From positions 2,728,001 through 2,792,000 of the forward strand of contig NZ_CP107931.1 in NCBI RefSeq assembly GCF_036023875.1: a stretch of DNA of 64,000 nt, written 5' to 3'. How positions within the stretch are numbered: position 1 is the first letter of the stretch; each line of letters begins with the position of its first letter. Below, in pieces: positions 2,386 through 20,100 of this stretch. The notes beneath the pieces were generated by a model. The model made no database searches. It saw nothing but the letters and a program-made list of their open reading frames with translations, and was not told the DNA's origin. Origin of the DNA: Mycobacterium sp. NBC_00419. Its GTDB lineage: Bacteria; Actinomycetota; Actinomycetes; Mycobacteriales; Mycobacteriaceae. Both the position numbers and the translations under genes were made by a program.

Positions 2386-3591
2386 CTAGGTCGGTACCGC
2401 GACACTGACCTCGTCGTTGGTGGGCAGCGGCCGCATGAGCGCGGGCAGGACGAGGTGGCGGCGCATGCGCCAGTTCGACTCGCGGAACAGCGATGCCATC
2501 GCCGCGACGGTGCCGCCGACATCGTCGCGGCCGGTGAGGTAGGCCCACCGGTGGGCGTCGGGCAGCTCGAAGAACTGCTCGAAGAAGCGGGGGACCTCGG
2601 CATCCGGCATGCGCAGTACCGCTTCCAGGCCGATCTGGCGGACACGGTGGATCACCTTCGCCGCCGGTGACCAGACGGTTGCGTGGGCTGCGGCGAGCGC
2701 GCGGTCGGGGTGGCCGGGCAGGTGCGCGGCGAGTGCGGCCGCCACCTGGGGGGCGAGCTGCAGCGATGCGGCCACACTGAACCCGGTTGCCGGGTGAATC
2801 AGGGGGGCGGCCGCACCGAAACCGAGCACGTTGGACCCCGAGTGTCGCGGATGATCGACGCGGAACGAAACCTTCTCTGAGCGTGCATCTTTCGGTGCCA
2901 CGATGCCGTGGTGGGCCAGGCGTGCGTGGAGGCGGCGGCGCAGGGTAGACAGCGGTAGCCCGGGCCGGCGTGCCAGTGAGGTCTCTTCGACGAGTATCTG
3001 GCCTTCGCCCAGGGGGACGACGTAGAGGAACGTCGGCCAGCCGGGCTCACCGTGGTCGGCGCGCCAGTCCATGAACAGTGCCTCACCGGTGTCGACCAGC
3101 GTGGTGACCGATTCCTCCGGGAGGATCACCCCGTAGGCCGTCTGTTCGGCGGGCACTCGGCGCGACGGGGTGGGGTCCAGCGGGCGCCACCGGCCCGCGG
3201 CGTCCACGACGACCGCGGCCCGCAGTGACGAGCCATCGGCGAGCGCCACCACACCGGGCTCCGGGGATCCGACGGCGCGCCCGGTGTTGACGGTCACCCC
3301 CGTCAACTGGTCGGCGAGGTGCGCGCGGAGAGCGTCGACGTCGAGGACGGCGTACTCCCAGCCCAGACGGTGTTCGGTGAGCGCGATCGCCCGCCCAGCC
3401 GCTCTTGCCGCGACGACGGAAGCCGGCAGGTCAGCCGGTATTTCCGGGCTCCACATCCCGTAGGTCGCCACCCAGGGCCGGTCCGGGTTTGGGTCGAGCA
3501 ATCCGACGTCCAGTCCGACCTTTGTGCACGCGGCGGCCAACGCCATGCCGGCGGGTCCGGCCCCGACCACCAAGACGTCCATGTGTTCCAT
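2386..3591 (-). CDS. lycopene cyclase family FAD-dependent protein
   Basis: 401 aa from ATG 3591; ATG 3582 is an equally good alternative, and an open extension to 3660 looks non-coding. The N-terminus MDVLVVGAGPAGMALAAAC is a dinucleotide-binding Rossmann motif, followed by YGMW in the position of the CrtY/CrtL cyclase signature and a C-terminal helical half (HPATGFSVAASLQLAP) matching plant/bacterial CrtL-type lycopene beta-cyclases. The expected reaction is cyclisation of lycopene ends to beta-ionone rings in the membrane. No crtE/B/I genes are adjacent, so the pathway must be encoded elsewhere or the gene acts on another isoprenoid. Confidence 0.8.
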   Translation of the reverse strand: MEHMDVLVVGAGPAGMALAAACTKVGLDVGLLDPNPDRPWVATYGMWSPEIPADLPASVVAARAAGRAIALTEHRLGWEYAVLDVDALRAHLADQLTGVTVNTGRAVGSPEPGVVALADGSSLRAAVVVDAAGRWRPLDPTPSRRVPAEQTAYGVILPEESVTTLVDTGEALFMDWRADHGEPGWPTFLYVVPLGEGQILVEETSLARRPGLPLSTLRRRLHARLAHHGIVAPKDARSEKVSFRVDHPRHSGSNVLGFGAAAPLIHPATGFSVAASLQLAPQVAAALAAHLPGHPDRALAAAHATVWSPAAKVIHRVRQIGLEAVLRMPDAEVPRFFEQFFELPDAHRWAYLTGRDDVGGTVAAMASLFRESNWRMRRHLVLPALMRPLPTNDEVSVAVPT

Positions 3592-3695
3592 GGTGCCCTG
3601 TGAAGTGTCGACCGGCGATGACATAACCGGGACATGTGGCGAACGGGGATCGAGTGGCAACCGCTGCCGGGTGGTTCGGCGGGTCGGCTGTCAGC

Positions 3696-5011: not shown

Positions 5012-7045
5012 GTGAGCTACACCGCTGCTGACATCACCGAGCTCGACGATGTCCAGCACACCCGCCTGCGGCCGGCGGTGAACCTCGGTCTGGACGTCCT
5101 GAACACCGCTTTGCGGGAGCTCATCGACAACGCAGTAGAAGAGGTGGCAGACCCCAGCCACGGCGGCTCCTGCGTCACGATCACCCTGCACGGCGACGGC
5201 TCGGTCAGCGTCGCCGACGACGGGCGCGGTCTGCCCGTCGACACCGATCCGACGACCGGCAAGAACGGCATCGTCAAGACGCTGGGTACCGCGCGTGCCG
5301 GTGGGAAGTTCTCCGCGCACGCCGACGCCACCAGCACCGGAGCGGGGCTGAACGGAATCGGCGCCGCGGCCGCCGTCTTCATCTCCGCCCGTACCGACGT
5401 CACGGTGCGCCGGGCCGGAAAGACCTACCTGCAGAGTTTCGGCCGCGGCTACCCCGGCGTGTTCGAGGGCTCCGAGTTCGATCCGGAGGCGCCGTTCACC
5501 CGCGCCGACGCGCAGAAGCTACGCGGCATCGGCAACCGAAAGCCCGACGCGCAGGGCACAACAGTGCGCATCCTGTTCGACTCCGCTGTCGTGCCCGACT
5601 CCAGCATTGACATCGCCGAGGTACTGCTGCGCGCCCACGCCGCGGCGCGGATGTCTCCCGGTGTGCACTTGATCGTCGTCGACGAAGGCTGGCCGGGCGA
5701 CGAGATCCCGCCGGCCTTGCTCGAGCCGTTCAACGGCCCGTGGGGTACCGACACGCTGCTTGACCTCATGTGCACCGCGGCCGGTAACCCTGCACCGTCG
5801 GTGCGGGCTGTCGTGGAGGGCCGTGGCGAGTACACCACCGGCCGCGGCCCGACACCGTTTCGGTGGTCGCTGACAGCGGGTCCGGCCGAGCCGGCGACGG
5901 TGGCCGCGTTCTGCAATACCGTGCGCACCCCCGGCGGCGGGTCGCACCTGACCGCGGCGATCAAGGGGCTGTCCGAGGCCTTGTCCGACCGGGCGTCCCG
6001 CATCCGCGACCTGGGTCTGGCCAAAGGCGAGGAAGGCCCTGAGCCACAGGATTTCGCGGCGGTCACCGCCCTGACCGTCGACACCCGCGCTCCCGATGTG
6101 TCGTGGGACTCCCAAGCCAAGACGGCGGTGTCGTCACGGTCGCTAAACCTGGCGATGGCACCGGATGTGGCCCGCAGCGTCACCGTGTGGGCGGCCAACC
6201 CGGCCAACGGTGACGCCGTGTCACTGTGGACGAAGCTGGCGCTCGAGTTCGCGCGGGCACGGCGTAGCGCCGAAGGCGCCAAGGCGCGCTCCCGCGCGGC
6301 ATCCAAAGCCAAGGGGCTCGGCACCAATCTGTCGCTGCCGCCGAAGCTGTTGCCCAGCAGGGAAACCGGGCGCGGGTCGGGAGCCGAGCTGTTCCTCTGC
6401 GAGGGCGACTCGGCGCTGGGCACCATCAAAGCCGCGCGCGACGCCACATTTCAGGCGGCCTACCCACTGAAGGGCAAGCCGCCCAACGTCTACGGGTACG
6501 CCCTGAGCAAGGCTCGGGGCAAGGACGAATTCGATTCGATCGAACGCATCCTGGGCTGCGGCGTGCGCGACCACTGCGACCCCGAACAGTGCCGCTATGA
6601 CCGGATCCTGTTCGCCTCCGACGCCGATCCCGACGGCGGCAACATCAACTCGAGCCTGATCTCGATGTTCCTGGACTTCTACCGTCCGCTCGTCGAGGCC
6701 GGTCTGGTCTACGTCACGCTCCCGCCGCTGTTCGTGGTCAAGAACGGTGACGAACGGATCTACTGCCAAGACGAGTCCGAGCGGGACGCCGCGGTGGCCC
6801 AGCTGAAGGCGACCTCCAAGAAGCGGGTGGAGGTGCAGCGCAACAAGGGTCTCGGTGAGATGGACGCCGACGACTTCTGGAACACCGTGCTGGATCCCCA
6901 GCGGCGCACGGTAATTCGCGTCCACCCCGACCACAGCGAGATGAACCTGCACCATACGTTGTTCGGCGGGCCGCCCGAGGGCCGACGCACGTGGATGGCC
7001 GACATCGCCGCCCGCGTCGACACCTCTGCGCTCGACCTCGACTAG
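5012..7045 (+). CDS. atypical type II topoisomerase, ATPase (GyrB/ParE-like) subunit
   Basis: 677 aa. GTG start chosen because AAAGGA lies upstream at good spacing and VSYTAADITELDDV precedes the ATPase; the open frame to 4889 has no family sequence. The GHKL ATPase shows the N box ELIDNAVEE (36-44), VADDGRGLP (68-75) and the lid region GGKFSAHADAT. The Toprim part keeps the metal-binding Glu in CEGDSALG (E464) and DADPDG (537-542), with RNKGLGEMDADDFW near the end. Residues around these differ from GyrB/ParE (EGDSALGTIK for EGDSAGGSA; DGGN for DGAH). It forms one operon with the GyrA-like gene 9 nt downstream. The pair resembles the additional type II enzyme reported from M. smegmatis (TopoM/TopoNM), which relaxes DNA and introduces positive supercoils. 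Confidence 0.88.
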   Translation: MSYTAADITELDDVQHTRLRPAVNLGLDVLNTALRELIDNAVEEVADPSHGGSCVTITLHGDGSVSVADDGRGLPVDTDPTTGKNGIVKTLGTARAGGKFSAHADATSTGAGLNGIGAAAAVFISARTDVTVRRAGKTYLQSFGRGYPGVFEGSEFDPEAPFTRADAQKLRGIGNRKPDAQGTTVRILFDSAVVPDSSIDIAEVLLRAHAAARMSPGVHLIVVDEGWPGDEIPPALLEPFNGPWGTDTLLDLMCTAAGNPAPSVRAVVEGRGEYTTGRGPTPFRWSLTAGPAEPATVAAFCNTVRTPGGGSHLTAAIKGLSEALSDRASRIRDLGLAKGEEGPEPQDFAAVTALTVDTRAPDVSWDSQAKTAVSSRSLNLAMAPDVARSVTVWAANPANGDAVSLWTKLALEFARARRSAEGAKARSRAASKAKGLGTNLSLPPKLLPSRETGRGSGAELFLCEGDSALGTIKAARDATFQAAYPLKGKPPNVYGYALSKARGKDEFDSIERILGCGVRDHCDPEQCRYDRILFASDADPDGGNINSSLISMFLDFYRPLVEAGLVYVTLPPLFVVKNGDERIYCQDESERDAAVAQLKATSKKRVEVQRNKGLGEMDADDFWNTVLDPQRRTVIRVHPDHSEMNLHHTLFGGPPEGRRTWMADIAARVDTSALDLD

Positions 7046-7054
7046 GAGTACTTC

Positions 7055-9193
7055 GTGACCGCCACTCTCGAGATCCCCGAGCAGAACCCCGATCTGGTGC
7101 TCGACCAGAGCGCCGATGACTACTGGAACCACTACCAGCTGACCTTCGCGCTCTACAGCGTCAGCGACCGTGCCATCCCGTCTGCGTTCGACGGGCTCAA
7201 GCCCGGCCAACGGCGGCTGCTCTACCAAATGCACGAGTCGAAGCTGCTGCCCGGCAACAAGCCGCAGAAGTCGTCGAAGGTCTGCTCCGCGGTCACCGGC
7301 AACCTGCATCCCCACGGTGGCGCGTCGATGTATGGTGCGGCCGCGCTGATGGCCGCCGAGTTTCAGCGCGTGAAAGTCATTGACGGACAGGGCGCATTCC
7401 CGCGTATCCAAGGTGACATCCCCGCCGCCGATCGCTACACCGAGATGCGGCTGTCGGCACCCGGCGCGGCCCTGACCGCCGAACTCGACGACCATGCCGT
7501 CCCGATGGTGCCGACATTCGACGGCGAGTGGACCGAGCCGACGATGCTGCCTGCCCAGTGGCCGGTACTGCTGTGCAACGGCGCCGTCGGTATCGCCGAG
7601 GGATGGGCCACCAAAGTGCCTGCACACAACCCCCGCGAGATCATGGCCGCGTGCCGCGCCCTACTGAAGACCCCGAACATGACCGACGACCGGCTGGTGA
7701 AACTCATCCCGGGGCCGGACTGGGGATGCGGGTCAACCGTCGTCGGCACGGCCGGGCTGCGCGAGTACATCACCACCGGCCGTGGGGCTTTCACCGTGCG
7801 TGGCACGGTGAACATCGACGGCAAGAACTGCGTCATCACCGAACTACCGCCCGGGGTGGCGAGTAATACTGTGCAGGAACGGATCCGGGCCCTCGTCGAG
7901 TCCGGCGAGATGTCCGGTGTCGCCGACATGTCGGACCTCACCGACCGGCGCAACGGGCTGCGGATCGTGGTCACCGCCAAACGTGGCCACGACGCTGAAC
8001 AGATCCGCGAACAGCTGCTGGCGCTGACCCCGCTGGAGTCGACGTTCGCCGCCAGCCTGGTCGCCCTCGACGAGAACCGGGTGCCGCGCTGGTGGTCGGT
8101 GCGCGAATTGATTTCGGCGTTCCTGTCGCTGCGCGATTCGGTGGTGCTGCACCGCAGCGAGTATCGGCTCGAGAAGGTGACCGCCCGCCGCCACCTGGTG
8201 GCCGGCCTGATGACCATCCACCTCGACATCGACGCCGCCGTGGCCGTCATCCGCGGTTCAGACACCGTCGATGAGGCCCGCCAGGGATTGCAGGAGCGGT
8301 TCGCGATCGACGCCGTTCAGGCCGATTATGTTCTGGCGCTGCAACTTCGCCGGCTCACCAAACTTGACGTCATCGAACTACAGGCCGAGGCAGAGAAGCT
8401 GGACGCCGAGTTCGCGGCACTGACCGAGCTGGTGGCCAATCCCGACGCCCGGCGGGCGGTGATCGACCAAGAGCTCGTCGAGACCGCGAAACTGTTCAAG
8501 GGCCCCGAGTTCGACCGTCGCACCGTGCTGGACGCCGAGGCCACCCCGGTCGCCGCCAGCACCGACGAGGACGGTTCCCGCGAACGTAAGGTCAACACCG
8601 CCTGGCGCCTCGACGATCGCGGAGTGTTCTCCGACAGCCACGGAGAGCTGCTGACATCCGGTCTCGGCTGGGCTGTGTGGACCGACGGGCGGGTGAAGTT
8701 CACGACCGGCAACGGTCTGCCCTACAAGATCCGGGACATCCCGGTGGCGCCGGACATCACCGGGCTGGTGCGCTCGGGGGTGCTCCCGGCGGGTTACCAC
8801 CTGGCACTGGTGACGCGACGGGGCAAGGTCCTGCGTATCGATCCGGCGGCGGTGAATCCGCAGGGGGCGGCGGGCAATGGTGTCGCCGGAGTGAAGCTGG
8901 CTGCCGACGGGGACGAGGTGATCGCCGCACTGCCGGTATCGTGCGGCAACGGCGAGGCCATCCTGTCCGTGTCGGAAAAGAGTTGGAAGGTCACCGAAGT
9001 CGCGGACATCCCGGTGAAGGGTCGTGGCGGCGCCGGCGTCGGATTCCATCCGTTCGTCAAGGGCGAGGATGCGCTGCTGGCGGCGTCGATCTCCGCGACC
9101 GGTTACGTGCGCGGCTCGAAGAACGTGCGCGCCGAGCCCCGTGCGAAGGCGTCGATCAAGGGCTCGGGAGCTGATGTGGCCCCGGCCGGCTAA
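7055..9193 (+). CDS. atypical type II topoisomerase, DNA-cleaving (GyrA/ParC-like) subunit
   Basis: 712 aa, GTG start with TAGGAG 6 nt upstream. The breakage-reunion domain has FDGLKPGQRRLLY (45-57), HPHGGASMYGAAALMA and the catalytic Tyr128 in AADRYTEMRL. Gyrase and topo IV normally have HPHGD and AMRYTE, so the active-site surroundings are divergent. A coiled region (about 400-470) with LQLRRLTKLD forms the gate. The C-terminal part from about residue 520 is a shortened beta-pinwheel-like domain with VKGRGGAGVGF, not a canonical GyrA box. With 712 residues it is well short of mycobacterial GyrA (about 840). It pairs with the ATPase subunit just upstream; quinolone response cannot be predicted from sequence. 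Confidence 0.88.
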   Translation: MTATLEIPEQNPDLVLDQSADDYWNHYQLTFALYSVSDRAIPSAFDGLKPGQRRLLYQMHESKLLPGNKPQKSSKVCSAVTGNLHPHGGASMYGAAALMAAEFQRVKVIDGQGAFPRIQGDIPAADRYTEMRLSAPGAALTAELDDHAVPMVPTFDGEWTEPTMLPAQWPVLLCNGAVGIAEGWATKVPAHNPREIMAACRALLKTPNMTDDRLVKLIPGPDWGCGSTVVGTAGLREYITTGRGAFTVRGTVNIDGKNCVITELPPGVASNTVQERIRALVESGEMSGVADMSDLTDRRNGLRIVVTAKRGHDAEQIREQLLALTPLESTFAASLVALDENRVPRWWSVRELISAFLSLRDSVVLHRSEYRLEKVTARRHLVAGLMTIHLDIDAAVAVIRGSDTVDEARQGLQERFAIDAVQADYVLALQLRRLTKLDVIELQAEAEKLDAEFAALTELVANPDARRAVIDQELVETAKLFKGPEFDRRTVLDAEATPVAASTDEDGSRERKVNTAWRLDDRGVFSDSHGELLTSGLGWAVWTDGRVKFTTGNGLPYKIRDIPVAPDITGLVRSGVLPAGYHLALVTRRGKVLRIDPAAVNPQGAAGNGVAGVKLAADGDEVIAALPVSCGNGEAILSVSEKSWKVTEVADIPVKGRGGAGVGFHPFVKGEDALLAASISATGYVRGSKNVRAEPRAKASIKGSGADVAPAG

Positions 9194-10578
9194 CCGGTGA
9201 AGCCGTCCCCCGATGTCGAACGGTCGTGGTGGGTGTAGGTCGACGGGGTCTTGCGGTCGCGGGCGATCTTGTCCAGCATGGCAATCCGCTCACGCGCGGC
9301 CTCGCCACTCTTGTTCCTGCGCTCGCGGACCGGGTTGGACCACGGCACGCTGTCGGCCACCATGGCGATGCCGACATTGAGCCGAGTGAGGTTCGCGAAG
9401 TAGCGCACGCGGCGCTCGAAGTTGTAGCCCAGCGGCTCAAAGAGTGTGCCCACCAGCATGGCCTCGATCTGCTGGTATCCGAACACAACGCCAGCCGGCG
9501 CCAGGGCGATGCTGGCCGTGATCTGATTGGCGTATCGGGATACGACATTCCTGGCCCAGCCCGGAAGTGCCTCGGTCAAGGTTGTCAGGTGCGCCGGACC
9601 GGCGATGGCATCGACCAGCTCAGCACGCCACGGCGACGGGTTACCACCCCTGGCGAGAACGTAATTCAACGATTTGATCAGCTCGATGCCGTTCTCGGAG
9701 TGCAGCAACTCCGGTGCTCCCCACAACCGGCCGGAGAACGACGAATACTCGGCAAGATCCTCGAGCTGCTGCGGCGTCAGCTTGCGCCCGAACGCGTGAT
9801 CGACGAGACGTCCGAGCAACATGCCGCTGCCGAAGCCCAGCAACGAGGTCACGGGAATGGGTTCGCCGAACTTCAGATAGACCTCGTCACCCCACTTCCG
9901 ACGGAGCCCCCGACTGGCCAGTGCGTGCATCAACCGCACCCGCACCACGTCCTGGAAAGCCTGTGAATGCCGGTCGAAGATGTCGGCAAGCGTGAAGGCG
10001 GCGAATACCCGGGCTGTTTCGATGAAGCGTCGCGGGCCGTCGTCGGCGAAGCGACCCGTGGCACCGGTGGCTGCGGAGATGTCGCCCGTCATCGCGGTCT
10101 CGTAGAACGCCCACGAGCGGATGATCGTGGTGGCGGCCCACGTGCTCGACATCGCCAGCATCCGGCCTCGCTCGGCAGATTCGAGATCGAACTGCGCCGG
10201 TAGTTGATCCAGGTGCTCAAAGAGCTCGATGAACTCTTGCGGCGGATCGTCGAGGGTGTCGATGCCGCGGGTCAACGCCTGCTCGAACAGAGCGCGGCCC
10301 TGTTCGGGACCGAGGCGCTCGAACGCGTCGACCGCGCCGATCATGTATTCGTCGCGCTGCCAGAAATAGTCGTCGCGCAGGCGGGTGAGGTCACTGGGTT
10401 GGACCTCTTTGTCGGTGTCGATCCACTCTCCGAACAGGAACTCGCGCATCCGGCGCCACTGGTCGGCGAAGTGGTCACGACCGGGCGGGATGGGCCGCAA
10501 CGGCCGATCGGGATGATCGCGCCGATTGAAGTCGACGTCCTCCAAGAGGATGTCCGGACGCTCGCCAGTCACCGTCAT
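9190..10578 (-). CDS. MpaB-family oxygenase (DUF2236)
   Basis: 462 aa, all-helical, cytoplasmic-looking with no signal peptide. The long form with WAATTIIRSWAFYETAM, DGPRRFIETARVFAAFTLAD and the Arg/His-containing helices resembles DUF2236 proteins, a family named after MpaB' and related to latex-clearing oxygenases, in which a haem is held by histidine. Which His ligates haem cannot be assigned from this sequence alone, and the substrate is unknown. Its last 4 nt overlap the end of the convergent topoisomerase gene. It lies 44 nt downstream of a GGDEF gene on the same strand and may be co-transcribed with it. Confidence 0.7.
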   Translation of the reverse strand: MTVTGERPDILLEDVDFNRRDHPDRPLRPIPPGRDHFADQWRRMREFLFGEWIDTDKEVQPSDLTRLRDDYFWQRDEYMIGAVDAFERLGPEQGRALFEQALTRGIDTLDDPPQEFIELFEHLDQLPAQFDLESAERGRMLAMSSTWAATTIIRSWAFYETAMTGDISAATGATGRFADDGPRRFIETARVFAAFTLADIFDRHSQAFQDVVRVRLMHALASRGLRRKWGDEVYLKFGEPIPVTSLLGFGSGMLLGRLVDHAFGRKLTPQQLEDLAEYSSFSGRLWGAPELLHSENGIELIKSLNYVLARGGNPSPWRAELVDAIAGPAHLTTLTEALPGWARNVVSRYANQITASIALAPAGVVFGYQQIEAMLVGTLFEPLGYNFERRVRYFANLTRLNVGIAMVADSVPWSNPVRERRNKSGEAARERIAMLDKIARDRKTPSTYTHHDRSTSGDGFTG

Positions 10579-10622
10579 GAGGCGACGTTATCGCGGGCGC
10601 GACCGTCTGGCAACGCCCGTTG

Positions 10623-11762
10623 TCAGTTCGTCAAAGGACGAGGTGCTCGTACGTGGATCGCTGAGTTGCCTCCGCGGCGCTTTGCGTCGAACATCGCTTG
10701 ATCGGCATGCCCGATGATCGTTTCCAACAATGTGGCTGGATCGCTCTCCAGTGCGGCGAATTCGGCCACCGCGACACTGGTGACGCCCACGCTCGCAGTA
10801 ATCGGAGGGTGATCGTCGGGCGCGGCAACCGCGGAGAGCACCTGCTCGGTGACGTGTTGTGGGTGGCCAGGTTCGGTGAGATCGACGATGACGAATTCCT
10901 CACCACCTACGCGGGCAACCAACGCACCGCCGCGAACCGCGGACTTGATCCGTCGTGCGCTGCGGATCAGGACCTCGTCTCCGACAGCATGGCCAAAGCT
11001 GTCGTTGACGGCTTTGAACCGGTCCAGGTCGACGACCATCACCACGATGTGGGCGTCTCGGGAACTGCCGCCGGTGACGAGGTCGCCGAGATGCAGGTGC
11101 AGTCCGCGCCGGTTCAGCAGCCCTGTCAACGGATCGATGACCGACTTCTCTGCGTCGTGACGCAACGCCCAGATTGCGGATTGGACACCCAACGGTGTCC
11201 CAAGTACTAGCGCCAGCGGGACAAGGGCCGTCGCTGCCAACTCGACGACTTCGACCTGCGCTTCGATGCCGATTCGCGCCACGAAGACGGCCGTCGTGAT
11301 GAAGGCCCAAAAGATGTGGCCCGCAAGCACTTTCGGGCCGTCGAAGAACACCAGGTACACCGACAGCATGGAGAAGAAGGCGAGCCCGAACGAGGCCAGC
11401 ACCCAGTTTGCGTCCAGCCAAACCATCGTGGTAATCGCGAAGTCAGCGGAGAAGACGAACAGCACCGACATCCGCCGCGAGGGCCACGTCCGGAAACACC
11501 ACACCCACGACCAGAAAGCCTGGACCGCAACAAAGAACGCTACGGCCACCCGCGAGGCGATAGTGCTCGCGGACGGCAACAGGATCGCGGCGGAGAGCAC
11601 CGCGTCGAGTCCCGTTCCCAAACCGATCAGGACTTGCACCGCACCCGACATCGCCCGCCTGAAGTAATGCACCTGCGTGGCGTAGTCGACCGGCTCGCGC
11701 CACCACTCGCCGATGATCCGGTGGAACGCGCCAACGCTTCTCAAACTGGCGAGCAATTCCAC
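10623..11762 (-). CDS. membrane-anchored GGDEF protein, probable diguanylate cyclase
   Basis: 379 aa. Roughly residues 35-200 contain six hydrophobic segments (for example VLIGLGTGLDAVLSAAILL and FGLAFFSMLSVYLVFF), then a GGDEF domain starting DPLTGLLNRRG, with substrate residues VDLDRFKAVNDSFGH and signature RVGGEEF, so c-di-GMP synthesis from two GTP is plausible. The position five residues before the signature is not RxxD, so product inhibition through an I-site is not expected. No EAL domain is attached. The GTG start directly abuts GGGGAG; a TTG two codons later would be better spaced, so the start is uncertain by two residues. A second similar gene lies at 16014-17093. Confidence 0.85.
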   Translation of the reverse strand: MELLASLRSVGAFHRIIGEWWREPVDYATQVHYFRRAMSGAVQVLIGLGTGLDAVLSAAILLPSASTIASRVAVAFFVAVQAFWSWVWCFRTWPSRRMSVLFVFSADFAITTMVWLDANWVLASFGLAFFSMLSVYLVFFDGPKVLAGHIFWAFITTAVFVARIGIEAQVEVVELAATALVPLALVLGTPLGVQSAIWALRHDAEKSVIDPLTGLLNRRGLHLHLGDLVTGGSSRDAHIVVMVVDLDRFKAVNDSFGHAVGDEVLIRSARRIKSAVRGGALVARVGGEEFVIVDLTEPGHPQHVTEQVLSAVAAPDDHPPITASVGVTSVAVAEFAALESDPATLLETIIGHADQAMFDAKRRGGNSAIHVRAPRPLTN

Positions 11763-11984
11763 CTCCCCGGCTGTGCCGTGCGGCCGTCCACCGATGACAC
11801 TACCGACCCTGGCGACGACTGCTCACCGGTCGGAGGCGCTGGCGCGGCACGTGCCGGCACCGGCGTCATCCACGTCGATCGACCGACACCCTGCCTGCTG
11901 TGGGCAGGCGAGGTCCTTCGCCGCGGATCTCCGTCATCGTCAATTTCGGCGGACTGTCGATATGGGACGGCGATTCGCTCTGAT

Positions 11985-12467
11985 TCAGGCAGCTGTATTC
12001 GGCCACTCCGCACGCGGCCCCAGGACGGGCTGGCGACGACGGCCATGGCCCCAGCCTGCCGTCCACGGAAAGCGTCCGTTGTTATCGGCCCATACCAATT
12101 GCAGCGCAAGGATCTTCGAGCCGAATAGCTCGACAGCGAATCTCATGTGGACATCGGGGTGCTCCACCTGAGCTACCTCGATAAGGAACCGATCTTGGAA
12201 GTCGATGTGCATCGCCGGCGCAAGCACGACGCCGTCGTCGACAATCATGTGCGCGATCGAGTTGAGTACTCGACAGGAGACCTCGGGGGACAGGCCGGTC
12301 ATCAACAGTTCCGGGAGACCGCGGGCGTGCAGCCCGACCGTGTACGCCAACGGTCGCTTGTCGCTTTCGACGTACTGAACCGCCCAGCCGTGGTCCTCGA
12401 TCGTCGCGCGCAGCACCTCCAGGTACTCCTCGTTGGTGCCGTCCGGATTGTCACAGCGCCAGCACAT
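11985..12467 (-). CDS. DUF4262 domain protein
   Basis: 160 aa. The start MCWRCDNPDG is supported by AAGGGAG about 6 nt upstream; longer starts lack this. The N-terminal CxxC, WAVQYVESDKRPLAYTVGLHARGLPELLMTGL and the acidic middle match the DUF4262 family, common in actinobacteria and of unknown function. The last 25 residues (Trp/Gly/Arg-rich, GWGHGRRRQP) form a basic tail. No enzyme motif is evident. Bases 11763-11984 before it contain nothing recognisable. Confidence 0.7.
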   Translation of the reverse strand: MCWRCDNPDGTNEEYLEVLRATIEDHGWAVQYVESDKRPLAYTVGLHARGLPELLMTGLSPEVSCRVLNSIAHMIVDDGVVLAPAMHIDFQDRFLIEVAQVEHPDVHMRFAVELFGSKILALQLVWADNNGRFPWTAGWGHGRRRQPVLGPRAEWPNTAA

Positions 12468-12583
12468 CGCGGCTCCCTTCGTCATGGATACCGCCAGCAT
12501 GCGCGCAGCCTCCGACAGATTCCGCGGGCTCGGTCGGTCGACGAGTCAGCGCAGCAGGTTGCCTTCGACGACGATCGGCCGAG

Positions 12584-13024
12584 CTAAGCCTGGTCCGACG
12601 TCGGGTTTCCGTAATCCCACGACCGCGTTCGCACCGGGGTCACGCGGATGTAGGCGGCGCCCGGTCGGGGTGCGCTGGGCCATTCGGACTCCGGCACGCC
12701 GCGCGCCCGAGCACCTTCCCTGGCCAGCTCCAGCGCCTCCCCTGGTTCGCGGACAATGCGGGCGCGGCCCTGGATCATCACGCCGCGGATGTCTGCCATC
12801 GTCGAGCCGTCTTCGAGCAAGACACTCACGTTCGGGTTGCTTTCGATGTTGGCCAGTTTGCGGGTGCCATCTCGCACACCCATGATGATGTCGCGGCCGA
12901 GGCGGAAGTATCCCAGGGGTACGGAGTGCGGGAAGCCATCCGTCTCGATGGTGGTCAGTATTGCCCAGCCCGGGCGGCTGTCGAGATACGCCGCAACTTC
13001 GTCGTCAGTGAGTTTTCTTGGCAC
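12584..13024 (-). CDS. PPOX-class F420-dependent or FMN-binding oxidoreductase
   Basis: 146 aa, the usual length for the split-barrel pyridoxamine-phosphate-oxidase-like family. Segments GWAILTTIETDGFPHSVPLGYF, IIMGVRDGTRKLANIESNPNVSVLLED and IQGRARIVRE are typical of mycobacterial FDOR-B proteins, which bind F420H2 (some bind FMN, FAD or haem). The pattern TRKLANI is a phosphate-binding element. It likely acts as a cytoplasmic dimer; the physiological substrate is unknown. It is flanked by short gaps on both sides, with no clear operon partner. Confidence 0.75.
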   Translation of the reverse strand: MPRKLTDDEVAAYLDSRPGWAILTTIETDGFPHSVPLGYFRLGRDIIMGVRDGTRKLANIESNPNVSVLLEDGSTMADIRGVMIQGRARIVREPGEALELAREGARARGVPESEWPSAPRPGAAYIRVTPVRTRSWDYGNPTSDQA

Positions 13025-13053
13025 GACACGAGTTTAGGCGCCCGACGGACTCC

Positions 13054-13656
13054 TCAGCGTGACGTGTCGATGACACTGACGACGAGTTGGAACGGGCCTT
13101 CCTGCTTATCGAGGATGTAGATCCCGACCCTGTTGATGGCCGACGGGTCCAGCGGCGGCGCCGGTACGGGATCGAGGAACCTGCCCACCGACTCGAAGCC
13201 GCCGACGGGCAGGTCGTAGGTCCGCAGGACGCCGGCCTGGGTGGAGAAGCGCTGGATATAGGACCAGGGCTGCCCCGTTTCCACCTTCAACACGTAGGTC
13301 TTGCCGTCGCCCAGTGCGCGCACGCTCAGCGACGTTGCACCTGCTGCCCGAGCCCCGATGTCGGGATCGACCGGACCGCGGGCTGAGGCGAATCCACCGT
13401 TGTTCTCCAGTGAGATGTTGCCCGAGAACACGAGTCCGCCGTCGCCGAAGGTGACCGTCGAGGTCGACCGGCCGCCCATGACAGGATCGTTCACCGTGGT
13501 CCAGGCGGCGACCGCGGCGGGATCACCGAGGTCGACGAGGACCGCTTCGTCAGCCCGCGCGATAGGCCCGGCGTTCCCGAACGACAGGATCAGTGCCGCC
13601 ACGCACGTGATCGCCAAGCCTGTCCGCACCCGCCACTGGCGTTGGTTACTCTCCAT
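13054..13656 (-). CDS. secreted CIA30-family protein
   Basis: 200 aa with a signal peptide (basic RQWRVR, then hydrophobic ITCVAALILSFGNAG, cleavage near ARA). The mature part has WTTVNDPVMGGRSTSTVTF, FSGNISLENNGGFASARG and the late DKQEGPFQLVVSVI, the pattern of the CIA30/NADH-ubiquinone-oxidoreductase-assembly-like beta-sandwich domain. In bacteria these domains are generic carbohydrate-binding-like folds, and a complex I role should not be assumed. It is probably exported; no lipobox was seen. Confidence 0.75.
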   Translation of the reverse strand: MESNQRQWRVRTGLAITCVAALILSFGNAGPIARADEAVLVDLGDPAAVAAWTTVNDPVMGGRSTSTVTFGDGGLVFSGNISLENNGGFASARGPVDPDIGARAAGATSLSVRALGDGKTYVLKVETGQPWSYIQRFSTQAGVLRTYDLPVGGFESVGRFLDPVPAPPLDPSAINRVGIYILDKQEGPFQLVVSVIDTSR

Positions 13657-13700
13657 CTCCCCAATGTAGGCGCGTCGGCGAGCCGCTCAGGCCGCCATCG

Positions 13701-14051
13701 TCAGTCGGTGGGCGTCACGAGGATGGCGAAGACTTTGCGGACCGTCTCGTCGACGTTCCATTCGCCGCTCCACCCGTCCGGGAACCACCGCACGGCCCCG
13801 GGTCGGATCTCCCACGACCCATCACTGTCGGTGATCCAGCCGTGCCCGCTGACGAAGTGCATGAGTTCGCCAACGCCGTCTTTACTGGATTTCCATGAAC
13901 CCGGCGTGCATTCCCACACGCCGAGTTGGCTGACCGAGTCCTCGTGAAGCATCAGCCCACGTTCATGGGGGCTGCCGGTGATCGGGTCCGCCTTGGGGCC
14001 CCAATCTTCCAGTTCCGCGTCGGCCGCCAACAGCGGGTCAATAGTCCTCAT
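13701..14051 (-). CDS. cupin-domain protein
   Basis: 116 aa from ATG 14051 (GGAG 9 nt upstream; an in-frame ATG at 14066 is possible). The beta-barrel motifs SQLGVWECTPGSW, ELMHFVSGHGWITDSDG and GAVRWFPDGWSGEWNVDETVRKVF match the small DUF861/EutQ-like cupins. The metal-binding His pattern is weak, so a catalytic role is uncertain. It lies 27 nt downstream of the sulfatase on the same strand, which suggests co-expression. Confidence 0.75.
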   Translation of the reverse strand: MRTIDPLLAADAELEDWGPKADPITGSPHERGLMLHEDSVSQLGVWECTPGSWKSSKDGVGELMHFVSGHGWITDSDGSWEIRPGAVRWFPDGWSGEWNVDETVRKVFAILVTPTD

Positions 14052-14078
14052 TGCTCCTGGCTCCAATCCGATGCTCGG

Positions 14079-15737
<1,659 letters not shown>

Positions 15738-15760
15738 TCAGTTTTGACCAGCGGCAGTAT

Positions 15761-15985
15761 CTACACGCCGTGTTGCCCCGCCGCTGACGCCGGCGTCTTT
15801 TCCACAGGTGGGATCGGAATGAACTGGGGCGTAACGGGTTTCCGGCCGGATCTCCTGTGATCGTGCAGAGTGACGTGAGCCGGTACATACGGCGCCGCTC
15901 CGAACGGATCTTCTTCTTGTTGCAGCTTCTCGAGCTTCCTGTTCATTGCCGGCGCTGAGACACGTTCGGACAGGTACTGAACCAT
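15761..15985 (-). CDS. small hypothetical protein
   Basis: 74 aa if it starts at ATG 15985. The composition (VSAPAMNRKLEKLQQEEDPF, then a Pro-rich tail QFIPIPP) looks like real coding sequence rather than an antisense shadow. It follows the GGDEF gene by 28 nt on the same strand. No signal peptide, membrane segment or domain is recognised and no good ribosome binding site is visible; an in-frame extension into the GGDEF gene exists. Confidence 0.4.
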   Translation of the reverse strand: MVQYLSERVSAPAMNRKLEKLQQEEDPFGAAPYVPAHVTLHDHRRSGRKPVTPQFIPIPPVEKTPASAAGQHGV

Positions 15986-16013
15986 CAATGCGCGTCTTCG
16001 GTTGAACTGGCGC

Positions 16014-17093
16014 TCAGAGCTGTCCGTTGTGACAAGACCGGTTTCCGCCGGCACGCTTGGCCTGGTACATGGCATCGTCGGCGGCTCGGATCAGGTCGTC
16101 GATGAGCTGCGGGCTAGGGGCGGCCGTGTCACCGTCGAGCGGGGCGCTAGCAGTACCGACACTCGCGGTGACTCGTGCCGGCAAGTCGGCAACGGCCCGG
16201 CGCAGCTGCTCTGCGTGGATCTCCGGCGTCGGCTGGCGGGCGACGTCGGCGATGAGGAACTCCTCTCCCCCGGCCCGGCCGATCACCGCGGAGCGACGGC
16301 AGGTCATCTCGAGTGCGGCGCTAACCCCGATCAAGGCGGCGTCGCCGGCGGCGTGGCCCTGGGTGTCGTTCAGCTGCTTGAAGTTATCGAGGTCGATCAT
16401 CGTGATCATCAGATGGGCACCGGTGCCGTGGTGGCGCATCATCAGTTCGTAAACCGAGTAGTGAAAAGACCGACGGTTGTGCAACCCGGTCAGCGAGTCA
16501 CGACCTGAGCTGCGCAGGTCGACGCGCAAAGTGCTCACCAGCGACTCGATGCCGAACGGCAGGCCGATGTTGAGCGCCACAACGATCGCCACGGCAGCGG
16601 CCGCCAGGTAGACATCACCCGTTTTGGCTACGACACGACCGGCCAGCACCGTGGCACAGATCGCGGCCACACCACAGTTGAGAACCACCTCCTGCCGCGT
16701 TCGGAAATAGGCGACGAACCCACCGATCACCGAGAACGTCACGCAGCCCATCAACCCCACGTAAGGGTTAGAGAACGACAGGCAGGCCGCGGCGATCGTC
16801 GCGGTCGAGGTCAGCGAGAACACCATCGACTGCCGCTGCGTTGGCCAATGCAAGAGGAAGGGCAGCGCCGCGCCCGTCGCCAATCCGGCCGCCACGATGC
16901 AGATGCTGGTCGTCAACCGGTTGCCCGGCCCGGCGGGGCTGAAGATCATCAACACTGTCGAACCCGCCAACAGCACGGTGGCGGTGAAGATCATCACCCG
17001 CCACAGCCGCTGCAGACCGCGGTCGTACAGGTAGGCGCTGATCCAGTCGTACTGGTCGACATGACGGTCCGGCACACATCCCCACCGAACCAT
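16014..17093 (-). CDS. membrane-anchored GGDEF protein, probable diguanylate cyclase
   Basis: 359 aa. ATG 17093 is preceded by GGGAG at 5 nt; the longer open frame begins at a TTG and is rejected. Six hydrophobic segments occupy about residues 30-190 (VMIFTATVLLAGSTVLMIF through AAAAVAIVVALNIGLPF). The GGDEF domain has DSLTGLHNRRSF, IDLDNFKQLNDTQGH and RAGGEEFLI. The I-site position reads CRRSAVIGRA without RxxD at the right distance. It resembles the GGDEF protein at 10623-11762 in layout, so the two may be old paralogues sensing through their membrane part. The C-terminus QAKRAGGNRSCHNGQL is ordinary for the family. Confidence 0.85.
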   Translation of the reverse strand: MVRWGCVPDRHVDQYDWISAYLYDRGLQRLWRVMIFTATVLLAGSTVLMIFSPAGPGNRLTTSICIVAAGLATGAALPFLLHWPTQRQSMVFSLTSTATIAAACLSFSNPYVGLMGCVTFSVIGGFVAYFRTRQEVVLNCGVAAICATVLAGRVVAKTGDVYLAAAAVAIVVALNIGLPFGIESLVSTLRVDLRSSGRDSLTGLHNRRSFHYSVYELMMRHHGTGAHLMITMIDLDNFKQLNDTQGHAAGDAALIGVSAALEMTCRRSAVIGRAGGEEFLIADVARQPTPEIHAEQLRRAVADLPARVTASVGTASAPLDGDTAAPSPQLIDDLIRAADDAMYQAKRAGGNRSCHNGQL

Positions 17094-17179
17094 CGCCACT
17101 CCCAAAATCTCCCCTGGAACTGCCGCCAACAGTTGCCGTGTCAATCTTGCCAGCGCATCCCGACGTTTGCCGGAGGGGG

Positions 17180-18412
17180 TCAGCTGGATTGAGTGCGTGC
17201 CCGAAGTAGGTCGGCCGCCTCGGTTTGATAGGCGTGCTCAGCCCATCCCAGTGGTGTTGTTCCGTACTGGGTGTCGGTGATGGTCGGGTCGGCACCGGAG
17301 TCGAGTAGCTGCCCGATCAGGTGTAGGTCACCGTCCCACGCCGCGTGATGCAGGGGCGTTGCACCCCGCTCGTCACGAACATTCGGGTCATCCGGCAACG
17401 ACGGGACGACGAGTTCGACGCCGGCCGAATAGATACCGTGTTTGGCCAGTAGGTCAAGGCGAGAAGCGAATCCATGTCCGGCTGCCCAGAGAATCTGTCG
17501 CTGCCACATCTGCTCGCGGGTTTCCATCGCATCGCCGAGTCGGCGTTCCCACGGGCTGGGCCCGGCATCGACGAGGCCATGGGCGAACAGCAATTCCAGG
17601 TGGGAATCGTCGGGGCGGAACATTCGGTTGTAGAGCGTCTGCTGATCGACAGGATGTGCACCCCGGCGCAGTAGGACGGTGGCCAGAGCTGGGGCGAACG
17701 GGTGGCGGGGCTGGCGGCGCGGGCCTTGCTCGCCTTCGCCGAACACCCCGGTCAGTGCGGTGAAGGGTGTCGACATGCCGCACCATAGGTACCCGGCGTT
17801 GGGGTCGGCACCGCAGTCCAGCAACAGCCCGGCCGCTGCGAGCACCTCATCCTCGCTGCGGTGCAAAGGGATTCGGGAATAGCACAGGTACAGCAACGGG
17901 ACCCAGCCGAACGGCCCGCCCGCCGCTGTCGCCAGGTCCGGTCGGGCGCCAATGTGACGTTGGAGTGCCTCAGGGTCAGCCGCTGATGCCGCGGCCCACA
18001 CATGCCGGTCAACTAAATCCGGCTCAGCGGCGAGCAGGTCGGCGGCAGCCTGTCGCCGCGGTGGGGCATCAGTGTGGTCGTAGCGCAGCGTCGCCAGAGA
18101 ACAGAACCGATCAGCCTGGCCGAGCGCATCCTCATCGATCGCGCTCGGATCGATGGTCAGGTCCGCGGCGATCTCGAGGTAGTGCACGAGCGCAGGCCAA
18201 CCGATGAATCCGTATCTGCGCGCCACGATCAGCTGCGCGTCATGCAGTGCGAATCGGTCCGGTGCGCCAACCAAGGCGACATCCGGTCGTGGATGGTGCG
18301 CGCGAACCAACTCCACAGCGTCGCGCTTACTGGTGGTGATTCCGCGTTGCAGATGCCGCGCCTCCTCGCGGAGACGGTCAAGTGACGGGTTGCTGGGCAA
18401 CGTGCTAGCCAT
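17180..18412 (-). CDS. ankyrin-repeat protein
   Basis: 410 aa, cytoplasmic-looking. The first 100 residues are helical and resemble an N-terminal domain seen before ankyrin repeats in actinobacteria (LDRLREEARHLQRG, GFIGWPALVHYLE). Ankyrin units are visible at AAAGLLLDCGADPNAGY (about 195-215), ATVLLRRGAHPVDQQT, LELLFAHGLVDAG, RLDLLAKHGIYS, and a clear pair near the end: DERGATPLHHAAWDGDLHLI and TQYGTTPLGWAEHAYQTE. Such proteins bind other proteins; no enzyme motif is seen. It lies downstream of dnaB on the same strand after a 308-nt gap. Confidence 0.8.
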   Translation of the reverse strand: MASTLPSNPSLDRLREEARHLQRGITTSKRDAVELVRAHHPRPDVALVGAPDRFALHDAQLIVARRYGFIGWPALVHYLEIAADLTIDPSAIDEDALGQADRFCSLATLRYDHTDAPPRRQAAADLLAAEPDLVDRHVWAAASAADPEALQRHIGARPDLATAAGGPFGWVPLLYLCYSRIPLHRSEDEVLAAAGLLLDCGADPNAGYLWCGMSTPFTALTGVFGEGEQGPRRQPRHPFAPALATVLLRRGAHPVDQQTLYNRMFRPDDSHLELLFAHGLVDAGPSPWERRLGDAMETREQMWQRQILWAAGHGFASRLDLLAKHGIYSAGVELVVPSLPDDPNVRDERGATPLHHAAWDGDLHLIGQLLDSGADPTITDTQYGTTPLGWAEHAYQTEAADLLRARTQSS

Positions 18413-18720
18413 GGCAGCCTCCTCTCACACGCCCGCGTCCGCGAGGTCGGGCCGAGAAGAGGTCGGTCACGATTCGGTGATCATCGGCAGGGAGGCTTAG
18501 CCCCTTCGAGCGGACATCGGGCGGTCCTGCAACGCCCGACCGATACGCTACCAGCGCGACAAAGTCCCGTACAGATACTCCCCTACACCACAATTGAGTT
18601 GGGAGAGAAGCGCTCCAGATCTACCGCGGCGCGTCTCATGGACGCTTCAAACTTGAGATCTGTTTGAAGCCGGCCGTGAGATTCTGAAGCGTGGGGGTGA
18701 GGATCTACTACGCTGGCCCG
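18413..18720. other. intergenic region between dnaB and the ankyrin gene
   Basis: This 308-nt gap holds the 9-bp perfect inverted repeat at 18644-18670, listed separately. No credible ORF, RNA gene or further repeat was seen. Confidence 0.5.
18644..18670. repeat. perfect 9-bp inverted repeat downstream of dnaB
   Basis: GCTTCAAAC (18644-18652) and GTTTGAAGC (18662-18670) are separated by 9 nt. It begins 50 nt past the dnaB stop. There is no T-tract on either side, so it could be a factor-assisted terminator hairpin of dnaB or a dimeric-repressor operator for the downstream ankyrin gene. Confidence 0.5.
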
Positions 18721-20100
18721 CTACCGCGCCATGTTGGTGAACCGCGACAGATGCAGCTGATGAGCCACGGTCACCGTCCTCGTCGGCCCGGCACGGTGTT
18801 TGGCGATGATCAGGTCCGCTTCGCCGCCGCGTGGGTCGTCACTTTCGAAGGCATCCGGCCGGTGCAGCAATATCACCATGTCCGCATCTTGCTCAATGGA
18901 CCCGCTTTCACGTAGATCCGCCAGCATCGGCTTCTTGTCGGTGCGCTGTTCCGGACCACGGTTCAGCTGGCTCATCGCGACCACCGGAACTTCCAGTTCC
19001 TTCGCCAAAAGCTTGATCTGCCTTGAGAATTCGGAGACTTCCTGCTGGCGTGACTCGACCTTCTTGCCCGAGGTCATCAGCTGCAGGTAGTCCAGCACGA
19101 TCAGCCGCAGCCCGGCCTTCTGGTGCAGCCGGCGCGCTTTGGCGCGGATCTCCATCATCGTCAGGTTCGGCGAATCGTCGATATACAAAGGCGCTTCGCT
19201 GATTTCACTCATTCGCCGTGCCAGCCGGGTCCAGTCGTCGTCACTCATCCGGCCCGAGCGCATGTCGGCCAGCTTGATCTTGGCCTCAGCCGACAGCAGC
19301 CGCATGACGATTTCGGACTTGCTCATTTCCAGCGAGAACACGATGCTCGGCAGGCGGTTCTTGATCGAGCACGAGCGCAAAAAATCCAAACCCAGGGTCG
19401 ATTTCCCCATACCGGGCCGGGCCGCCACCACGATCATCTGCCCGGGGTGCAGGCCGTTGGTCAGCTCGTCGAGTTCGGTGAACCCCGTCGGCACACCCTT
19501 GGAAATTCCACCGTTGGAGGCGATGGCGTCGATCTCGTCCATCGTCGGCTGCAACAGCTGCTCGAGCGGGATGAAGTCTTCGGCCGTGCGCCGCTCGGTG
19601 ACGTCGTAGATCTCGGCCTGGGCGCGGTCGACGATCTCGTCGACGTCGGCGCCCTCGGCCCCGGCATAGCCGTACTGCACCACCCGGGTGCCGGCCTCCA
19701 CCAGCCGGCGCAGCAGCGCCTTCTCGGCGACGATGCTGGCGTAGTACCCGGCGTTGGCCGCCGTGGGCACCGTCGAAATCAGCGTGTGCAAGTACGGCAG
19801 GCCGCCGATCCGGCGCAGCAGTCCGCGCCGGTCCAGCTCGGCACCGACGGTGACGGCGTCAGCGGGCTCACCGCGGCCGTAGAGGTCCAGGATGGCGTCG
19901 TAGACGTTCTGATGGGCGGGCCGGTAGAAGTCCCCCGGGCGCAGCTTCTCGAGCACGTCGGCGATGGCGTCCTTGCTCAGCAGCATGCCGCCCAGCACCG
20001 ACTGCTCGGCGGCGAGGTCCTGGGGCGGCTGCCGCCCGAAGTCCTCGCTGGGCGGAGGAGCGCCCATCCCGGCCTGACCGAGATCGTCAACTACCGCCAT
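18721..20100 (-). CDS. dnaB: replicative DNA helicase DnaB, intein-free
   Basis: 459 aa. Start MAVVDDLGQA chosen as the usual mycobacterial N-terminus, behind a purine-rich GAGGAGGTGGGGG; the open frame to 20208 is not helicase-like. The N-terminal domain (about 30-130) begins PQDLAAEQSVLGGMLLSKDA. The RecA-like domain has Walker A RPGMGKST (228-235), SLEMSKSEIVMRLLSAEA, LIVLDYLQLM (Walker B) and SQLNRGPEQR, with the arginine-finger region DLRESGSIEQDADMV. It forms the hexameric helicase at the fork. The M. tuberculosis gene carries an intein in this region; here the domain is uninterrupted. An SOS-box-like palindrome lies just upstream. Confidence 0.97.
   Translation of the reverse strand: MAVVDDLGQAGMGAPPPSEDFGRQPPQDLAAEQSVLGGMLLSKDAIADVLEKLRPGDFYRPAHQNVYDAILDLYGRGEPADAVTVGAELDRRGLLRRIGGLPYLHTLISTVPTAANAGYYASIVAEKALLRRLVEAGTRVVQYGYAGAEGADVDEIVDRAQAEIYDVTERRTAEDFIPLEQLLQPTMDEIDAIASNGGISKGVPTGFTELDELTNGLHPGQMIVVAARPGMGKSTLGLDFLRSCSIKNRLPSIVFSLEMSKSEIVMRLLSAEAKIKLADMRSGRMSDDDWTRLARRMSEISEAPLYIDDSPNLTMMEIRAKARRLHQKAGLRLIVLDYLQLMTSGKKVESRQQEVSEFSRQIKLLAKELEVPVVAMSQLNRGPEQRTDKKPMLADLRESGSIEQDADMVILLHRPDAFESDDPRGGEADLIIAKHRAGPTRTVTVAHQLHLSRFTNMAR

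Follow-up and report, generated by a model that had tools for sequence, protein, structure and literature searches.

The stretch of the Mycobacterium sp. NBC_00419 chromosome analysed here (the window; 64,000 nucleotides, positions 2,728,001 to 2,792,000 of contig NZ_CP107931.1) contains two adjoining genes, designated topoN and topoM, for the subunits of a type II topoisomerase. M. smegmatis reportedly has an extra two-gene type IIA topoisomerase, TopoNM, described by Jain and Nagaraja in 2005, and the sequence-only reading of the window had proposed a second, atypical enzyme of this kind beside gyrase. Both TopoN and TopoM are intact, adjacent and under purifying selection. The features are as follows (window coordinates, all on the + strand).

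5012..7045, +, topoN: ATPase/Toprim subunit (GyrB/ParE-like), 677 amino acids (aa), GTG start
5099..5413, +, GHKL ATPase segment of TopoN: residues 30-134, with Glu36 and Asn40 equivalent to Glu42 and Asn46 of E. coli GyrB
6386..6700, +, Toprim segment of TopoN: residues 459-563, with Glu464 and Asp537/539/541
7055..9193, +, topoM: DNA-cleaving subunit (GyrA/ParC-like), 712 aa, GTG start
7319..7336, +, place of the quinolone-resistance region in TopoM: residues 89-94, with E. coli GyrA D82/S83/D87 replaced by G89/A90/G94
7433..7438, +, Arg127-Tyr128 cleavage pair of TopoM, from the alignment with E. coli GyrA
8540..9190, +, C-terminal domain of TopoM: about 217 residues, with a degenerate KGRGGAG at residues 655-661

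The gene pair and its products

The proposal of a second complete pair was borne out, with all Pfam domains above cut-off in the two frames: HATPase_c, DNA_gyraseB, Toprim and DNA_gyraseB_C in TopoN, and DNA_topoisoIV and DNA_gyraseA_C in TopoM. The topoN stop and the topoM start are 9 bases apart, and a purine-rich stretch precedes each GTG start. The genome is a single contig of 5.6 Mb, in which an ordinary gyrBA lies outside the window, as had been expected, about 70 kb from topoNM; a Pfam search of the chromosome detected neither a third type II pair nor ParCE. The pair thus stands beside a separate gyrase in a genome without ParCE, as is characteristic of TopoNM. Its atypical nature is measurable, since all 15 NCBIfam gyrase/topoisomerase IV (topo IV) rows listed fall below their cut-offs (best B subunit model, 300 of 740 bits; best A subunit model, 499 of 654 bits), the topo IV models parE_Gneg and parC_Gpos reaching 249 of 723 and 337 of 813 bits.

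Purifying selection is evident for both subunits from dN/dS values of 0.047-0.102 between the window pair and 11 chosen loci, which include Millisia, a plasmid of M. intracellulare and two M. smegmatis-like genomes (at L008, TopoN was aligned in part only). In GTDB contigs 155 relatives were found; the best 80 of these (the named loci) belong mostly to Mycolicibacterium, Mycolicibacter and Mycobacterium, plus Millisia. The two genes adjoin in all 80, with 0-21 bases from stop to start as extrapolated from alignment ends; at L052, under half of TopoN is present on the contig. Neither tandem repeats nor a sigma-70-like promoter were found in the stretch around the pair, and no tRNA in a scan of the window.

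The hallmarks of type IIA enzymes are all present, i.e. the GHKL ATPase, Toprim, the Arg-Tyr cleavage pair and, in a predicted model, the GyrA core fold. In alignments with E. coli GyrB and GyrA, TopoN keeps Glu36, Asn40, Gln368/Lys370, Glu464 and Asp537/539/541, and TopoM keeps Arg127-Tyr128. The TopoM model, made from a deeper alignment (mean pLDDT 83) and superseding one from a shallower alignment (pLDDT 50), has target-normalised TM scores of 0.88-0.93 against isolated GyrA-core chains. Residues following the core number 217 in TopoM, 336 in the GyrA of the same genome, 269 in E. coli ParC and 313-317 in actinobacterial ParC. The C-terminal domain of TopoM may comprise about four blades, the strands having been judged by eye in the model rather than counted by measurement. 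The GyrA of this genome has two gyrase boxes, QKRGGKG near residue 540 and QGRGGKG near residue 745, whereas the alignment of TopoM revealed only the degenerate KGRGGAG, with neither a canonical box (QRRGGKG type) nor a full-length C-terminal domain.

The sequence-only reading had also claimed divergent surroundings of the active site, which holds for the quinolone region of TopoM and not for the catalytic residues, these being unchanged. G89/A90/G94 occupy the places of E. coli D82/S83/D87 in all 8 TopoM rows aligned, and G89 and G94 are unchanged across the 19 rows of a second TopoM alignment, whereas the 21 other A-subunit rows all retain D82, and an acid is present at 87 in 19 of them, the exceptions being phage G and L121. 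A90 is not distinctive for TopoM, because the GyrA of the same genome likewise has Ala at the S83 place. The acid at GyrA position 87 anchors quinolones, and Gly at both acidic places predicts a low quinolone sensitivity of TopoNM.

Phylogeny and distribution

TopoM forms one clade in the A tree (100/100), and a tree with TopoM and GyrA as one clade is rejected (p-AU 0.004). The B tree unites TopoN with its relatives in one clade (100/100, branch 1.22), and without the phage row L118 three supported groups are seen: TopoN, actinobacterial ParE and the gyrase-side rows. Mycobacterial TopoN is nested in the wider TopoN clade in the best tree, but the alternative is not rejected (p-AU 0.08). The trees were built without the Klebsiella rows, L160, L144, L204, L206, L207 and the partial B rows of L108-L114; the A and B trees left out IMGVR_L121, L123, L139, L166, L137 and phage G, the B trees phylumB_L203, L212, L221, deepN_P0207 and P0216, and one B tree also IMGVR_L118. 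Each subunit groups separately from gyrase and from actinobacterial topo IV, so that the placement inside either of them, which would have refuted the sequence-only reading, did not occur; a join of TopoM with actinobacterial ParC is, however, not rejected (p-AU 0.087).

TopoM was detected in 174 of 396 genomes of the genus, that of the window included (E 3.1e-167 or better; presence was counted by hand, and part of the genomes are incomplete). Of the remainder, 182 gave gyrase-level matches only (about 1e-60 to 1e-90) and 40 gave no match at 1e-60. The rarity assumed at the outset, with absence from other mycobacteria, thus did not survive: TopoNM is common in related mycobacteria, contrary to its reported absence outside M. 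smegmatis. A 2021 review (PMC8084294), in the part consulted, gives it as absent from other, even related, bacteria, and no report of a wider distribution was found in searches of open-licence papers.

Among 397 genomes of the order, 25 match TopoM at 1e-100, with 17 full-strength matches, all in the genus, and 8 ParC-like ones (41-42% identity); TopoN occurs in 9 of 201 genomes of the family, i.e. 8 in the genus plus G1153; and 396 genomes of the phylum yielded no close match outside the genus (best other match 512 bits vs 1089-1115 bits). Among 40 genomes drawn from the named loci, 38 contain a single copy of TopoM, and M. canariasense and M. austroafricanum contain two. No more than 10% of the chromosome separates the pair from gyrA in 11 of the 15 genomes selected for this comparison (related species, 11 of the 15 lengths rounded, other GyrA-compared genomes left out), for which a p-value is indicative only.

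Inheritance, mobile copies and deep relatives

Among the mycobacteria compared, vertical inheritance of TopoNM prevails; mobile copies exist as well. In 22 hand-picked genomes of the genus, the identity of TopoM to that of the window is within 5 points of the GyrA identity, 6 of the GyrA comparisons covering residues from about 130 onward only. In G350, G085, G313, G159, G280 and G019 the GyrA match begins near residue 130 within open frames of about 1250-1270 residues, a pattern such as an intein-like insertion would give.

Three sets of copies concern mobility. 1) The pair of Millisia brevis was probably acquired by transfer, since its TopoM is 90% identical to that of the window and its GyrA only 83%. 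2) A 437-kb mobilizable plasmid of M. intracellulare subsp. chimaera carries the pair at 89-90% identity (L116, 12943-17115). 3) The second copies of M. austroafricanum and M. canariasense (L261, G1312:C11; L262, G1292:C33) are 80% (TopoN) and 76% (TopoM) identical to the window pair. The stretches around them are 97.4% identical over 18.3 kb, whereas the chromosomal pairs of these species reach 86.5% over 4.2 kb; recent transfer of the second-copy stretch between the two species is the likeliest reading. The second-copy TopoM is also 99.7% identical to a protein of M. mageritense. This stretch further carries PARP-WGR, DUF218 and phage-like small genes; 4 of 10 neighbours match PHROG families, 77 bases in one resemble eight mycobacteriophage records, and no match was found among plasmid records. 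Large genes also lie just upstream of the pair in Millisia, the plasmid and the second-copy element; these are unrelated to one another, relatedness being seen only between the two element copies.

A constant partner gene was sought and rejected, no neighbour being near-universal among the 80 named loci. The commonest window neighbour, an Rv2525c-like gene, is present in only 24 of them (26 of 115 loci), and unbiased clustering of 84 loci gave no non-Topo cluster of more than 23 loci, frames inside topoN/topoM excepted. In the window, a minus-strand frame of 462 aa without a Pfam family (9190-10578) shares 4 bases with the end of topoM; it is found near the pair in 11 of the 80 loci, 8 of which also have an alpha/beta hydrolase gene. 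Upstream of the pair lies a lycopene cyclase-like gene (2386-3660).

Outside mycobacteria, at least 47 TopoN clusters were counted by hand, 41-56% identical to the window TopoN where identities are given; the best GyrB/ParE rows are only about 30% identical to it. Their sources are listed as lgn, ena and jgi, and one is a Spirochaetes metagenome-assembled genome with an NCBI name. These clusters appear to derive from metagenomic or environmental DNA, on which the listing itself is silent, and their longest contig, of 241,816 bases, hints at mobile or rare genomes.

Residence of this deep family in viruses found no support: IMG/VR scans with TopoN proteins or alignments as patterns (in one of them, the best 80 of 86 matches were kept) recovered none of the deep clusters and gave L117, a true family member (91%) on a 20-kb contig with a serine recombinase, and L118, a distant phage-like relative. 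Direct search likewise pointed to no phage origin, none of the phage records with a match being more than 60% identical to TopoM (1993 matching records) or TopoN (2021). In L118 (IMG/VR 3300031088_000782, 309 kb), which also carries exonuclease genes, the subunits of a type II topoisomerase pair (9977-19003) are separated by homing endonuclease-like genes. In unrooted trees, this nearest viral pair joins the stem that links TopoNM to the remaining rows (A 96/95; B 100/100 on both sides); judged by branch length, the B subunit joins closer to gyrase/ParE. Unlike TopoNM, to which it is about 30-34% identical on long branches, it has a full-length C-terminal domain. L118 has 8 of 25 TopoN signature residues, another viral row 4 of 25.

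We suggest tentatively, and with considerable doubt, that TopoNM could be the cultured tip of a large third family of bacterial type IIA enzymes whose main home is the phages, plasmids and other mobile elements of uncultured microbes; mycobacteria might have taken it up from such elements, established it close to the replication origin for use as a quinolone-tolerant decatenase, and be exchanging mobile versions to this day.

Relation to M. smegmatis TopoNM and proposed function

For relatedness to the M. smegmatis enzyme the support is indirect. In G077 and G344, TopA is 98% identical to 6pcm_A, which we take to be M. smegmatis TopA, and these apparent sister genomes encode TopoM 91% and TopoN 90-91% identical to those of the window. 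Moreover, a 91%-identical relative (P0010) bears the NCBI name 'topoisomerase subunit TopoM' among the matches listed, which are the best 120 each for TopoM and TopoN from the 7996 and 7993 candidates with the largest number of shared words. The assignment to the TopoNM kind made by the sequence-only reading is supported. The present pair and that of M. smegmatis are each an extra two-gene type IIA pair beside gyrase in a mycobacterium, phylogenetically apart; the present pair is from another species, and the distribution is far wider than reported.

MSMEG_0456 and MSMEG_0457 are presumably TopoM and TopoN of M. smegmatis. The part of a biofilm study that holds its table (PMC12702967) names them gyrase subunit A and topo IV subunit B, with values of 0.37 and 0.54, respectively, for the planktonic to biofilm transition and 4.30 and 3.05 for biofilm to recovery.

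We consider, with a probability of about 0.83, that the pair is TopoNM, a type IIA topoisomerase that depends on ATP and belongs to a family separate from the gyrases and topo IV enzymes examined, and most likely a supplementary decatenase/relaxase. With its own gyrase it shares the catalytic residues and core fold; the differences lie in the two boxes and 336 C-terminal residues of GyrA vs the degenerate box and 217 residues of TopoM, and in the rejected TopoM-GyrA clade. Several points weigh against this assignment: i) TopoM and actinobacterial ParC as one clade stay compatible with the data, ii) the tree software flags long branches in the A tree, iii) in the small trees used, ParC/ParE of E. 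coli and Listeria group with the gyrase side, topo IV not forming one clade, iv) the genus can do without TopoM, since it was not found in 222 of the 396 genomes (some incomplete), and v) the M. smegmatis link runs through apparent sister genomes rather than through its own TopoN/TopoM sequences.

The first of these points bears on the chief alternative, which we regard as unlikely, that the pair is a diverged form of the ordinary actinobacterial topo IV (ParCE), kept by some mycobacteria after their kin had lost it. The two enzymes are alike in domain order and catalytic residues, ParC is the best A subunit outside the family (41-42% identity for the best non-mycobacterial ones in the order), and Streptomyces ParE has the same EGDSALG form of the Toprim motif. 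However, TopoN has about 30% identity with actinobacterial ParE vs 41-56% with the unnamed non-mycobacterial family, TopoN and ParE are separate supported clades, as are TopoM and ParC in the best trees, and actinobacterial ParC differs from TopoM in the longer C-terminal domain (313-317 vs about 217 residues) and in the residues equivalent to D82 and D87, which are Gly in TopoM. In addition, TopoM is not simply fast-evolving now, because its identity tracks that of GyrA within the genus.

M. smegmatis has a cohesin-like defence system that restricts plasmids (EptABCD/Wadjet type), for which JetD_C is taken here as the marker. Although the consulted part of the 2021 review (PMC8084294) suggests a tie of TopoNM to this system, membership in it is highly improbable, and an obligate part in it is largely refuted by co-occurrence, as JetD_C is found in 67 of 396 genus genomes with TopoM in 29 of these 67 vs 145 of the 329 without it (Fisher p = 1.0), was not found in the genome of the window, and none of the ten flanking frames scanned resembles a Wadjet-type system.

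What we infer for the activity of TopoNM follows from homology and analogy. The enzyme would be an N2M2 heterotetramer, in which TopoN would close an ATP gate on the transport segment; the gate segment would be cut by the Toprim domain of TopoN together with Tyr128 of TopoM, and the transport segment passed. Since its C-terminal domain is short and without a canonical gyrase box, TopoM is unlikely to wrap DNA in gyrase fashion, and the enzyme would be expected to relax and decatenate. Its likeliest job in the cell would be that of a supplementary decatenase/relaxase beside gyrase, in a genome without ParCE. Positive supercoiling may also be possible in this species, carried over from the M. 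smegmatis report. According to the same part of the review (PMC8084294), M. smegmatis TopoNM introduces positive supercoils, relaxes and decatenates; apart from it, reverse gyrase alone is known for ATP-driven positive supercoiling, and the mechanism and role of TopoNM are described there as unknown.

An enzyme that is common, tracks GyrA, is mostly single-copy, is missing from many genomes and is carried on transferred DNA offers natural comparisons for the role of TopoNM, and its deep relatives provide sequence variation for asking how a short C-terminal domain with no canonical gyrase box could reverse the sign of supercoiling.

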